Source: DATDCY01 sp031406795 [NCBI: Candidatus Rokuibacteriota bacterium]
GTDB lineage: Bacteria; JAUVQV01
Direction: 5' to 3'
DNA: 19,296 nt
Assembly: GCA_031406795.1 (NCBI GenBank)
Contig: JANOHV010000049.1
Location: 1 to 19,296, forward strand
Part shown: positions 326 to 18,819 of the stretch, one piece after another
How positions within the stretch are numbered: position 1 is the stretch's first letter
How the letters are laid out: the number at the start of each line of letters is the position of its first letter
Program-made: the position numbers and the translations under genes
Notes under the pieces: generated by a model
What the model was told of the DNA's origin: nothing
The model's input: the letters and a program-made list of their open reading frames with translations, nothing else
The model's database searches: none

Positions 326-490
326 ATGTGGCGATGCCAAGGACATAACTGCGGGTACACTTACGATCCAGCCAAGGGGGATAAACGGGGTAAAATCCCG
401 CCCGGGGTCGCCTTCGAGGACCTCCCTGAGAATTGGAAGTGCCCATGCTGCGGTGCCAGCAAGAAGATGTTCAAGAAGATCGACGGCTGA
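326..490 (+). CDS. Rubredoxin (54 aa) with CX4C first metal loop
   Basis: This is a small cytoplasmic one-electron carrier with a single iron held by four cysteines. The reading [20 protein letters not shown] begins at 326, followed by [23 protein letters not shown] and a short basic end. The order Cys-loop, GYTYDP, PPG..FEDLP..W.CP.CG, K..F is diagnostic of rubredoxin, and 54 residues is the usual length. The second metal loop is the normal CPxCG (C41, C44), but the first is C4-X4-C9 rather than CX2C. AAGGAAA lies about 8-12 nt before the ATG as ribosome-binding site. In rubredoxin biology such proteins feed electrons to superoxide reductase, rubrerythrin or flavodiiron oxygen reductases; no partner gene is visible here. 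It converges with the candidate selenoprotein gene at 575-754. Confidence 0.88.
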
Positions 491-574: not shown

Positions 575-754
575 TCACCTTACGGCCGCAATCAATCCCA
601 CGAACGCACCGAGCAGCACCATGACCATGGGCTGGCAGGTGATCGCTCAGCCGCTGCCGGCATAACGCGAGAGGAGAGAAACCGTCAAACCAATAGCCGC
701 ACCTGCAGATATGCCAACGACCGCCTTGAGCACAACCTTTGGCTTGTTGTTCAT
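575..754 (-). CDS. Candidate small two-helix membrane selenoprotein, in-frame TGA at codon 36
   Basis: Reading TGA as selenocysteine (U) gives 59 residues. The N-terminus is MNNKPKVVLKAVV, followed by a Gly/Ala-rich membrane helix (about 8-28), then SRYAGSG-U-AITCQP, then a second helix from MVMVLLGAFVGL to the AAVR terminus and a TGA stop (575-577). The internal TGA is at 647-649, between the two helices, and forms U-X3-C with Cys40. The layout of two short helices separated by a Cys-containing GxG..C..P loop resembles small DUF6132-like membrane proteins; that match is from memory and uncertain. The hairpin at 614-634 is a good bacterial SECIS. Selenocysteine use is supported independently by the TGA in selD in this window. 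No convincing Shine-Dalgarno precedes the ATG at 754. The alternative is a TGA-broken pseudogene, but the reading frame beyond the TGA stays clean and hydrophobic. Confidence 0.6.
614..634 (-). promoter_or_regulatory. Bacterial SECIS-like hairpin after TGA 647-649
   Basis: On the minus strand, 12 nt after the TGA, CAGCCCAU pairs with AUGG-U-GCUG. This gives eight base pairs with one bulged U on the 3' side and a GGUC tetraloop closed by U-A. The loop begins 20 nt after the TGA. The E. coli fdhF SECIS, the SelB-binding element, also has a GGUC apical loop and a single bulged U, there on the 5' side, at a similar distance. Pairing was checked by hand only. Confidence 0.65.
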
Positions 755-8297: not shown

Positions 8298-9356
8298 TCA
8301 ACCGTTGACGGTGATGCCCGGCGCGCCGGCCTCGACGCTCCCGACGATCGCCGCCCACGGCAACCCCGCCGCGTGCAGATCGCGCACGAGCTCACGCGCC
8401 TGCGCCTCCGGCAGCGCCGCGAGCAGCCCGCCCGAGGTCTGGGGATCGAACAGGACCTCCTCCTGTTCGCGGCGCAGCTTCACGGCCAGGCGCAGACGAT
8501 CGCCGCACAGCGCGCGGTTGCCGGCGTTGGAGCCGGTGCCCACGCCCGCGGCGTACATCTCCACGGCGCCCGGGTACAGCGGCAGCGCCGGGAAGGAGAG
8601 GACGATCCGGACCCCCGAGCCGACGGCCATCTCCTCGGCGTGCCCGGCGATCCCGAACCCGGTGATGTCGGTCAGCGCGTGAATCTCGTACTTGAGCGCC
8701 GCTTCGCACGCCGCCATGTTCAGTGCGGCGGTCACCGGCAGCACGTCGCGCTCCAGATTGGCGAAGGGATACTTCCCGGCGCGGCTGGCGTTGAAGAGCA
8801 CGCCGTTGCCGAGCGGCTTGGTCAGCACGAGCGCATCGCCCGGCCGCGCCCCGCAGTTGGCCAGCACGCGGTCGGGGTGTACCAGGCCGGTCACCGCCAG
8901 GCCGTATTTCGGCTCGGGGTCCTCCACCGAATGCCCGCCGGCGAGGCAGGCGCCGGCCTCCACGACCTTCTCGGCGCCCCCGCGCAGCAGATCGCGCAGC
9001 AGGCCGAGATCGAGTTCCTTCGCGGGAAAGTTCACGATGTTGAGCGCCATGATCGGCCGCCCGCCCATGGCCCAGACATCGGAGAGAGCATTGGCGGCGG
9101 CGATGCGCCCGAACCAGACCGCGTCGTCCACTACCGGCGTGATGTAATCCACCGTAGAGATGATGGCGATTTCGGGGCTGACCCGGTACACCGAGGCGTC
9201 GTCCGCCGTCTCGAAACCGACGAGCAGGTTCGGGTCGGCGCTGCGCGGCAGCCCGGCGAGCACCTCCGACAGCACGGCCGGAGGAAGTTTCGCCGCTCAA
9301 CCGCAGGTGCGCGAGGCACCCATCAAGGTCTTCTTCGACCCGAAAGGCTGCTGCAT
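8298..9356 (-). CDS. selD: Selenophosphate synthase, itself selenocysteine-encoded (TGA at 9297-9299)
   Basis: SelD makes monoselenophosphate, the selenium donor for Sec-tRNA and selenouridine, from selenide and ATP. Reading begins MQQPFGSKKTLMGASRTCG, then TGA as U20, then AAKLPPAVLSEVLAGLP. Family members have Cys or Sec at exactly this position (GxG-C/U-xxK). Downstream come STVDYITPVVDD (67-78), ANALSDVWAMGG (88-99), the GGHS loop (140-143) and FDPQTSGGLL near the C-terminus. Total length is 352 codons, matching the family. The ATG at 9356 is preceded by GGGAGGGG; a second in-frame ATG is at 9323. A hairpin follows the TGA. Starting instead at the GTG inside the downstream frame (9275) would lose the active site. 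The gene follows the ykgJ-type gene by 20 bp, probably in one transcript. Confidence 0.93.
9263..9284 (-). promoter_or_regulatory. Bacterial SECIS-like hairpin of selD
   Basis: On the minus strand CCUCCG (9284-9279) pairs perfectly with CGGAGG (9268-9263) across a ten-base loop GCCGUGCUGU that can close further by G-U and C-G. The stem starts 12 nt after the TGA, the same spacing as in the candidate selenoprotein at 575-754. Confidence 0.6.
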
Positions 9357-17721: not shown

Positions 17722-17750
17722 AATTAACCCCAGTTGCCGGGGGAAGTCAA
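17722..17750 (-). promoter_or_regulatory. Sigma70-like promoter for the cytochrome-kinase pair
   Basis: On the minus strand TTGACT (17750-17745), 17 bp and TTAATT (17727-17722) predict a start near 17715, giving a leader of about 70 nt. Confidence 0.45.
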
Positions 17751-17762
17751 CCGGCCGCGCCG

Positions 17763-17791
17763 TTGTGTCGGCCCGCGACTCCCGCTATCAT
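17763..17791 (+). promoter_or_regulatory. Sigma70-like promoter for the prenyl-synthase-like gene, near-leaderless
   Basis: TTGTGT (17763-17768), 17 bp and TATCAT (17786-17791) predict a start at about 17798, immediately before the ATG at 17800. There is no Shine-Dalgarno. Confidence 0.5.
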
Positions 17792-17799
17792 CGGGCCGC

Positions 17800-18819
17800 A
17801 TGCCTGGACTGGCGTTTCTCGGCCGGATCGGCCTGTTCCGCGAGAGCCTCGCGGAGCACGGCACGGTGCTGGCCGACTACTGGGCCAAGGCCCACGCGGT
17901 GCTCGCGGGCTCGGGGGTGGCGCTCGCCCCGCTGCCCCGGGCCTGGACGACGCTGCGGCACAATCACTTCTCGGTGCTCTTCATCGCCGTGTTCCGACTG
18001 CTCGACATCCCGGCCCCACGCCGGTTGCTGTACGCCCGGATCAACCACTGCCTGCGCGCCTGGGTCACGGCCTGCGACAACCTGCTCGACGGCGAATCGC
18101 GCGAGACGCTGCTGACCGACCTGCCGGCCGGGGCGGCCGTCTTCAAATCGGCGCACACGCTGCTCGTCGTCGACCGGGTCTTCTTCCTGATGCTGCGCGA
18201 GGCCGAACGCGACGGCGTGATCACGCCGGCGGAGGCCGAGCGGCTGATCGGCGTGAGTCTCGGGGCACTCAGCGCCAGCGGGCGCCAGGAGGCGGAGGAG
18301 GAGCACGGCGTCGCCGGGCGGCTGCGCCCGGCGCGGGTCCTGCGGGAGGTTCACGGCCGCAAGGCAGGACTGCTCTTCACCGCGCCGCTCGCCGCTCCCC
18401 GGGCGCTGGGCGACGCCGGCACGGGCCGGCGGTTCGCCGACCTCGCGCGCGGGCTGCACCGTTTCGGGCTGGGCGTGCAGATCCTCGACGACCTCACTGA
18501 TCTCGGGCAGGACCTGGCCGGACGGCGCCAGAACTTCTTTGCCTCGGTGATCGCCCACGGCGCGGATGCCGGCGAGAAGGCCCGGCTCGAAACGCTCGAG
18601 GGCGACGAGGCCGTGCGCGCGAACGAGCTGCTCTGGAGGCAATTCCCCCGGGGCCTCGCCCGGACCCAGGCCGAATGTCTCGCGCAGTTCCGCTCCGGGA
18701 TCGACCTGCTCTGCCGCGGCGGGCTGCCGTTGAGCCGCACGGAGCGCGTGGCGCTCGCCGCCGGACTGGCCGCGGTGGTGCGCCACCCCCCCCTGGCCAC
18801 GCGCCTCAGGGCCCGGTAG
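17800..18819 (+). CDS. Trans-isoprenyl diphosphate synthase-like protein (class I terpenoid fold, 339 aa)
   Basis: The all-helical sequence contains both aspartate motifs of the family: DNLLDGES (D93 and D97, a first motif of DxxxD form) and LGVQILDDLTDLGQD (D230, D231, D234). Between them is HGRKAGLLFTAPL, the equivalent of the K(T/A)GxLF segment. This supports a Mg-dependent prenyl-diphosphate-binding enzyme of the polyprenyl synthetase superfamily. Product chain length cannot be read, and the first motif lacks the usual DDxxD, so it could be a divergent synthase or a related terpenoid enzyme rather than a housekeeping one. ATG 17800 is chosen because the promoter ends just before it and the protein begins naturally there (MPGLAFLGRI). 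No isoprenoid-pathway neighbours are present. It ends just before a dispersed repeat. Confidence 0.78.
   Translation: MPGLAFLGRIGLFRESLAEHGTVLADYWAKAHAVLAGSGVALAPLPRAWTTLRHNHFSVLFIAVFRLLDIPAPRRLLYARINHCLRAWVTACDNLLDGESRETLLTDLPAGAAVFKSAHTLLVVDRVFFLMLREAERDGVITPAEAERLIGVSLGALSASGRQEAEEEHGVAGRLRPARVLREVHGRKAGLLFTAPLAAPRALGDAGTGRRFADLARGLHRFGLGVQILDDLTDLGQDLAGRRQNFFASVIAHGADAGEKARLETLEGDEAVRANELLWRQFPRGLARTQAECLAQFRSGIDLLCRGGLPLSRTERVALAAGLAAVVRHPPLATRLRAR

Follow-up and report, generated by a model that had tools for sequence, protein, structure and literature searches.

A short gene in the window, the 19,296-nucleotide stretch of DNA analyzed here, very likely encodes a selenocysteine (Sec)-containing protein that belongs to a family of two-helix proteins. 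As far as sequences can tell, the decisive evidence for Sec is comparative: a TGA stands in the same place in 69 other homologs. The hosts of this selenoprotein family, judging by the genomes in which we find it, very probably include several bacterial groups. The original prediction, made from the window alone, of a small membrane selenoprotein whose two helices are joined by a loop with Sec and a Cys partner is supported by homologs from several phylum samples, by SECIS hairpins that are enriched at the Sec sites relative to the Cys sites, and by a Sec-encoded selD gene in the same window.

A short gene with an in-frame TGA

The 60-codon frame, its two helices, and the TGA in the loop between them are as originally predicted, and the strand, which had been left unstated, is the minus strand. 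The features of the gene are the following.

754-575, minus strand: candidate small selenoprotein gene, 59 residues plus a TGA terminator, with an in-frame TGA at codon 36
649-647, minus strand: predicted Sec codon TGA, residue 36
637-635, minus strand: codon TGC of the putative partner Cys, residue 40 (U-x3-C)
745-653, minus strand: predicted helix 1, residues 4-34 (AlphaFold2 model and hydropathy)
646-581, minus strand: predicted helix 2, residues 37-58 (AlphaFold2 model and hydropathy)
733-731, minus strand: alternative start GTG, coinciding with the start of most homologs

Translation of positions 754-575 on the minus strand gives MNNKPKVVLKAVVGISAGAAIGLTVSLLSRYAGSGUAITCQPMVMVLLGAFVGLIAAVR*. 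An AlphaFold2 model of the window's own protein, the only one folded, was built from the single sequence with Cys in place of Sec (mean pLDDT 78.8); it consists of two helices (residues 4-34 and 37-58) with residue 36 in the turn. By eye, the window gene has no clear Shine-Dalgarno sequence ahead of the ATG at 754, and the GTG at 733 agrees with most homologs, so the start of the gene is unsure. Gene-calling software that treats every TGA as a stop would be expected to split genes of this kind into pieces of ≈30 residues.

Homologs conserve TGA or cysteine at the same position

Direct scans of genome contigs, viral contigs, and plasmids with the 59-residue protein alone returned no match. SelD was used as a lure to Sec-using genomes; the 59 residues were then run against 16 of the genomes behind the 36 loci to which it led. 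The two first matches, from MAGs titled Eremiobacterota and Fermentibacteria, are 38% identical to the window protein, and each has one TGA, in the same place. Later searches used profiles against phylum samples, each named here by the record title of the MAG at its center. The Eremiobacterota-centered sample has matches in 26 of 149 genomes (E ≤ 0.05), and its 29 rows comprise 13 Sec forms and one Cys form on reading; the 15 excluded rows are the paralogs L074 and L061, the chance rows L066 and L068, and eleven judged from the table. The profile matches one of three genomes in the Fermentibacteria sample and 25 of 297 in the Deltaproteobacteria-centered sample, in which all 27 matches have one TGA in the loop. 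Among the Zixiibacteriota-centered genomes, 62 of 132 match, with one TGA in 50 of the 63 matches; 23 of the 63 lie outside the sequences read and are, by the table, 22 with one TGA and one stop-less fragment. With occurrence on the scale of these last two samples, the selenoproteome would gain a widespread family. No profile match was found in any of the 299 genomes in the phylum sample of G001, whose center is titled Gammaproteobacteria. Of the 33 genomes behind the SelD loci, three match at E ≤ 0.01, and one sequence from the SelD-locus genomes, from a MAG titled Bacillota (L213), is a C-x4-C form that stands outside the counts below. In a Maribellus-centered (Bacteroidota) sample of 118 genomes, the Pfam model for DUF6132 matches 28 sequences from 27 genomes, and no TGA occurs in any of these sequences; one partial row (L131) was excluded.

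Homologs with TGA or Cys at position 36 were to be expected under the original prediction, and of the 110 sequences that we read, 70 have TGA and are counted as Sec forms and 40 have Cys. The Sec forms come from the window (1), Fermentibacteria (1), and the samples centered on Eremiobacterota (13), Deltaproteobacteria (27), and Zixiibacteriota (28), and the Cys forms from those centered on Maribellus (27), Zixiibacteriota (12), and Eremiobacterota (1). The window protein reaches its highest identity, 49%, with L084, and the clade of its most similar relatives consists of L081, L084-L086, and L088-L091. The tree of the 110 proteins, which are so short that the alignment offers few columns, leaves many forks open and its bootstrap unsettled, and we read only coarse clades from it. 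The RNase PH of the window has its best match, at 63%, in G173 of the Deltaproteobacteria-centered sample and matches of 58-61% in several other samples, which is suggestive but not decisive.

The internal stop is a TGA in all 70 Sec-form sequences, one in each, and neither TAA nor TAG occupies the site in any of them. Sec and Cys exchange within a close pair of homologs, L169 (GSQUMLMCQP) and L160 (GSQCMIICQ). In 46 close pairs, with some sequences belonging to more than one pair, changes 3' of the TGA number 141, 49, and 331 at codon positions 1, 2, and 3, and those 5' of it number 213, 115, and 462; by this measure, the stretch 3' of the TGA evolves as protein. None of the 110 proteins ends at the TGA, an outcome that would have spoken against the original prediction. 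That every homolog should have Sec or Cys at this position holds for all 110, each of which has one or the other in the loop, but not for the paralog rows L074 and L061 (genomes G153 and G152), which have no Cys whatever and whose genomes also carry a Sec form. A UGA conserved among homologs that have Cys counterparts, the pattern by which bacterial selenoproteins are recognized, is what the family displays. Two different Sec paralogs occur together in G278 (L094 and L104) and in G248 (L096 and L103).

Two readings in which the TGA does not specify Sec are contradicted by this comparison of homologs. The TGA could be an ordinary stop, with the downstream frame a coincidence or a decayed remnant, and SECIS-like hairpins are indeed common in the GC-rich window; the TGA is conserved in 70 homologs, however, the sequence that follows it is under coding constraint, and 40 further homologs have Cys in its place, and we regard an ordinary stop as highly improbable. 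Reassignment of TGA to Trp or Gly (codes 4 or 25) would likewise explain the open frame, but TGA terminates 38 of the 110 genes, that of the window included (the others end in TAA, 40, or TAG, 32), and the homologous residue is Cys, so that we give reassignment almost no credence.

SECIS hairpins and the Sec machinery

Within the coding sequence, the TGA of the window gene is followed by a hairpin.

634-614, minus strand: candidate bSECIS hairpin CAGCCCAUGGUCAUGGUGCUG, 8 bp with a bulged U and a GGUC apical loop, 12 nt past the TGA

The spacing of 12 nt, the bulged U, and the GGUC loop match the original description exactly. On its own, the hairpin CAGCCCAUGGUCAUGGUGCUG has an energy of −8.3 kcal/mol; under the bSECIS rules, applied here as they are set out in PMC13188914, the site has a GGUC loop, 20 nt, and a value of −14.0. 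The site thus fits the rules, as expected of a SECIS element, but the fit is not significant alone. Synonymous reshuffles of the window gene equal its hairpin score in 6.7% of 60 draws (P = 0.067), and among the 390 TGA triplets on both strands of the window, 158 reach −14.0 and 323 pass the loose bSECIS energy rule. A GGUC loop on four Watson-Crick pairs at 16-37 nt past the TGA occurs at one of the 390, which is that of the Sec gene itself. The window hairpin alone is suggestive and not significant by itself.

Across the family, the bSECIS energy rule (−7.5 kcal/mol) is satisfied at 54 of 70 Sec sites versus 9 of 40 Cys sites, a loose rule for which reshuffled sequences give base rates of 0.67 and 0.27, respectively. 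After correction for the reshuffles, the difference between Sec and Cys sites has p = 1.4 × 10−6, with sites counted as independent and kinship ignored. Individually, 20 of the 70 Sec sites and 3 of the 40 Cys sites reach P ≤ 0.05; one of the Cys sites in the hairpin comparison (L126) was placed at the other Cys of its pair.

The window also contains a selD gene.

9356-8298, minus strand: selD, predicted to be Sec-encoded, likely start at 9356, TGA at 9299-9297 (CGUAAK), hairpin at 9284-9263

The selD hairpin begins 12 nt past its TGA, and the earlier observation that selD has a TGA of its own followed by a hairpin at the same spacing is exact. A selD that appears to be Sec-encoded suggests that the organism makes Sec. 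The nearest match of the window SelD, at 65% identity, is L001, from a MAG titled Gammaproteobacteria. In the Eremiobacterota-centered sample, where 113 of all 149 genomes have SelB above the cut-off, it exceeds the cut-off in 11 of 13 Sec-form genomes but not in G028, the one with a Cys form; the TGA-form genomes G029 and G164 lack a SelB match at E ≤ 1e-40. In the Zixiibacteriota-centered sample, SelB exceeds the cut-off in 25 of the 28 Sec-form genomes read and in 11 of 12 Cys-form genomes. SelB exceeds the cut-off in 113 of the 132 genomes of that sample overall, with tRNA-Sec in 106 of 132, so that its presence there does not tell the two forms apart.

A conserved Se/S pair with a relocating partner cysteine

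In an alignment of 24 sequences, G22, G33, Sec/Cys36, P42, and G49 are invariant, and P42 is kept in 68 of the 70 Sec forms. Both helices reach a hydropathy of 1.6 in 47 of the 70 Sec forms and 16 of the 40 Cys forms. Sec forms average 2.9 Lys and Arg residues in their ends and 0.53 in the loop; for the Cys forms the averages are 5.5 and 0.47, respectively. By the positive-inside rule, positively charged parts of a membrane protein stay inside, so that ends rich in Lys and Arg and a loop with few of them place the loop outside. Given this charge bias and the exported-looking partners described below, the loop is most likely on the periplasmic side.

The U-x3-C arrangement of the original prediction is the commonest geometry of the Sec forms (58 of 70, with Cys at +4) but not the sole one: eight are C-x4-U, three are C-x5-U, with the partner at −6 (L100, L152, and L172), and one is C-x-U, with the partner at −2 (L056). 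No Sec form has Cys at both +4 and −5, and every one has a Cys within six residues of Sec. Exactly one Cys lies within eight residues of Sec in 68 of the 70, and L150 and L165 have a second. All 40 Cys forms contain exactly two Cys in the whole protein, spaced as C-x4-C in 31, C-x3-C in eight, and C-x5-C in one. On the coarse tree, L152 and L172, as well as L056, are nested in clades that are otherwise U-x3-C, a placement that suggests that the partner Cys was probably relocated more than once during evolution. By comparison of the sequences, the conserved core of the family is the Se/S pair, and its retention despite the shifting geometry points to a bond, or a shared ligand, between the two residues. 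The relocating partner Cys amounts to a natural experiment on Sec-Cys pairing.

Gene neighborhoods

We compared 58 loci, 46 with Sec forms and 12 with Cys forms, leaving aside the window and the duplicates L210 and L211. Their flanks run from 0.6 to 7 kb, some stopping at contig ends, and wide regions were fetched for 15 of the 27 Deltaproteobacteria-centered genes and at least 10 of the 13 Eremiobacterota-centered genes. The 13 neighbor proteins used as queries were chosen for their recurrence in these same loci, so the contrast between same-strand and opposite-strand occurrences is the sole control. Of the 58 loci, 31 have a thioredoxin-fold, DsbH-type, OsmC, or DUF302 relative (in Pfam terms, Thioredoxin, Thioredox_DsbH, OsmC, and DUF302) no more than 3.5 kb away on the strand of the gene, and none has one on the opposite strand.

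The frequent order in the Zixiibacteriota-centered Sec loci is DsbH, OsmC, DUF302, Sec gene. L204:3535-6778 and similar loci of that sample, with a DsbH-type thioredoxin, OsmC, DUF302, and the Sec gene, form a possible thiol/oxidant module. In the Cys loci of the same sample, DUF302 is directly 5' of the gene in four and a thioredoxin-like gene is 3' in seven. A thioredoxin gene ends 15-19 nt 5' of the Sec gene in five Deltaproteobacteria-centered loci (L173, L174, L175, L177, and L180) and stands 28 nt 5' of it in the Eremiobacterota-centered L201. Several of the thioredoxin-like partners open with signal- or lipoprotein-like stretches by eye; the Deltaproteobacteria-centered thioredoxin lacks an evident signal peptide, whereas thioredoxin-like proteins elsewhere look exported. 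Recurrent redox neighbors of this kind give a starting point for work on an uncharacterized domain.

The thiol-redox genes that we sought are missing at 27 of the 58 loci, including nine of the ten Eremiobacterota-centered loci and all five C-x4-U loci fetched; five of these loci come from the clade in which the window protein has its most similar relatives. In the window itself, none of the thioredoxin-fold, DsbH, OsmC, or DUF302 genes sought occurs near the Sec gene, which has a different neighbor.

326-490, plus strand: rubredoxin, a convergent neighbor of the Sec gene on the opposite strand

The rubredoxin is convergent with the Sec gene and on the other strand, and hence the two do not form an operon. 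Rubredoxin recurs at 1.0-5.7 kb from the gene in four of the 58 loci, all of them among the six loci fetched from the window's closest clade, on the same strand as the Sec gene in three of the four. The original suggestion that the neighboring rubredoxin hints at a redox role is borne out as regards the setting, which recurs in this clade, but not as an operon or a rubredoxin partnership. By Pfam, rubrerythrin is present in three of the six closest-clade loci (L176, L182, and L183); an Fe/Mn superoxide dismutase (SOD) lies 27 nt 3' of the gene in two, and DJ-1/PfpI and an NAD(P)-disulfide oxidoreductase family protein are found in one each. A heavy-metal P-type ATPase is near the gene in two, L183 (by Pfam) and L182 (as a cluster mate). 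Taken together, L176, L179, L182, and L183 show a clustering around the Sec gene of genes for rubredoxin, rubrerythrin, SOD, DJ-1/PfpI, and a heavy-metal P-type ATPase. Elsewhere in the window, positions 17723-16242 on the minus strand encode a cytochrome with a Cytochrome_C554 match, adjoined by a gene that by eye is histidine kinase-like, and positions 17734-18819 on the plus strand hold an ORF of 361 residues that matches no Pfam family at E ≤ 0.001.

Proposed function and alternatives

By comparison of homologs, UGA at codon 36 is very probably read as Sec under the direction of the SECIS hairpin that the coding sequence contains. The product would be a hairpin of two predicted membrane helices whose short connecting loop holds Sec and a single Cys. 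Given a partner Cys that is kept while it relocates, Sec and Cys may form a selenenylsulfide/selenol-thiol redox pair, which in many relatives would, by gene order, be regenerated by a thioredoxin-fold protein encoded in the same operon. Most likely the selenoprotein would serve envelope thiol balance or the defense against oxidants, as a membrane-side thiol redox carrier or reductase. Redox chemistry of either sort is, in our estimation, rather likely for the Se-S pair.

In the membrane thiol relays CcdA and DsbD, chalcogen residues sit at the membrane helices, and the partners are thioredoxin-fold proteins. A stripped-down counterpart, in the form of a minimal, probably oligomeric Se-based transmembrane thiol relay built from a hairpin of 55-60 residues, is a tentative idea and somewhat unlikely to be correct as it stands; in such a relay, the Se-S pair would pass electrons between thioredoxin-fold proteins and envelope targets. 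The likeness to CcdA and DsbD would be one of analogy, if the redox reading is right, and we claim no relation in sequence or fold. A narrower job, in which a small membrane reductase reacts through its Sec to defend the membrane against peroxide or other oxidants, is a serious possibility that nevertheless falls short of probable. OsmC neighbors in 14 of 46 Sec-form loci speak for it, as do rubredoxin (four loci), rubrerythrin (three), SOD (two), DJ-1/PfpI, and the NAD(P)-disulfide oxidoreductase (one each) among the six loci fetched from the closest clade and the rubredoxin of the window, and this setting favors oxidant defense in the window's clade. The rubredoxin, rubrerythrin, and SOD setting is limited to that one clade among the loci read, however, and the model is a bare helical hairpin without a peroxidase fold. 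A different chemistry altogether, in which the two-helix protein would assemble into an oligomeric pore or carrier and its Sec/Cys pair would bind a soft ion (sulfide, selenide, Cu, Hg, or As) with no electron cycling, would suit the glycine-rich helices (G22, G33, and G49), the two chalcogen ligands per subunit, and the heavy-metal P-type ATPases seen in L183 and L182 among the minority of neighbors that were annotated, and metal/sulfur membrane selenoproteins are listed in PMC13188914; with thioredoxin and DsbH-type genes adjoining the gene in many loci, we consider soft-ion binding unlikely.

Relationship to DUF6132 and to known selenoproteins

The window protein was originally called undescribed, which holds insofar as the family is absent from a table of 119 prokaryotic selenoprotein families (PMC13188914, a 2026 review, Table 1) but must be qualified by its relation to the known domain DUF6132 (PF19628). 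Neither PF19628/DUF6132 nor a fitting name or domain appears in that table, in which many hypothetical families carry NCBIfam numbers. Searches of NCBIfam with 16 members gave no match at E ≤ 0.01. With 24 members at E ≤ 1, matches scatter over 22 families, the best at 4.7e-4 (a riboflavin transporter model, two members), and none is named selenoprotein, among models that may not cover all the numbers in PMC13188914. A word search of the literature for DUF6132 led only to work on plant nucleotide sugar transporters, and the main-text passages of the deep-Sep paper (PMC12013277), the GOS survey (PMC2398784), and Peng 2016 (PMC5029168) contain nothing alike. Within the literature searched, the family is unreported.

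Sec-thioredoxin and the Prx-like selenoproteins (PMC13188914) share with the family a UGA with an in-frame hairpin that fits the bSECIS rules, Sec and Cys homologs, and a chalcogen pair. The family differs from them in its two-helix membrane hairpin, in the use of U-x3-C or C-x4-U rather than UxxC or CxxU, and in standing outside the 119.

PF19628 matches eight of 16 members of the new family at E ≤ 0.01. The window protein itself scores 13.2 bits, under the 23.2-bit cut-off, and 14.0 bits with a glycine-zipper model. Like the family, DUF6132 comprises small proteins of two helices; a pair of Cys stands in their loop, as in GCxSGxCPITSNP, and the loops align. Two helices and a loop with two Cys or with Sec and Cys, which is our own description of DUF6132 forms and not that of Pfam, describe the family as well. 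DUF6132 forms are mostly C-x4-C, as in 31 of the 40 Cys forms read, whereas the Sec forms are mostly U-x3-C. By these sequence relations, the family appears to be a mostly Sec-containing branch related to DUF6132, of which the window protein is not filed as a member.
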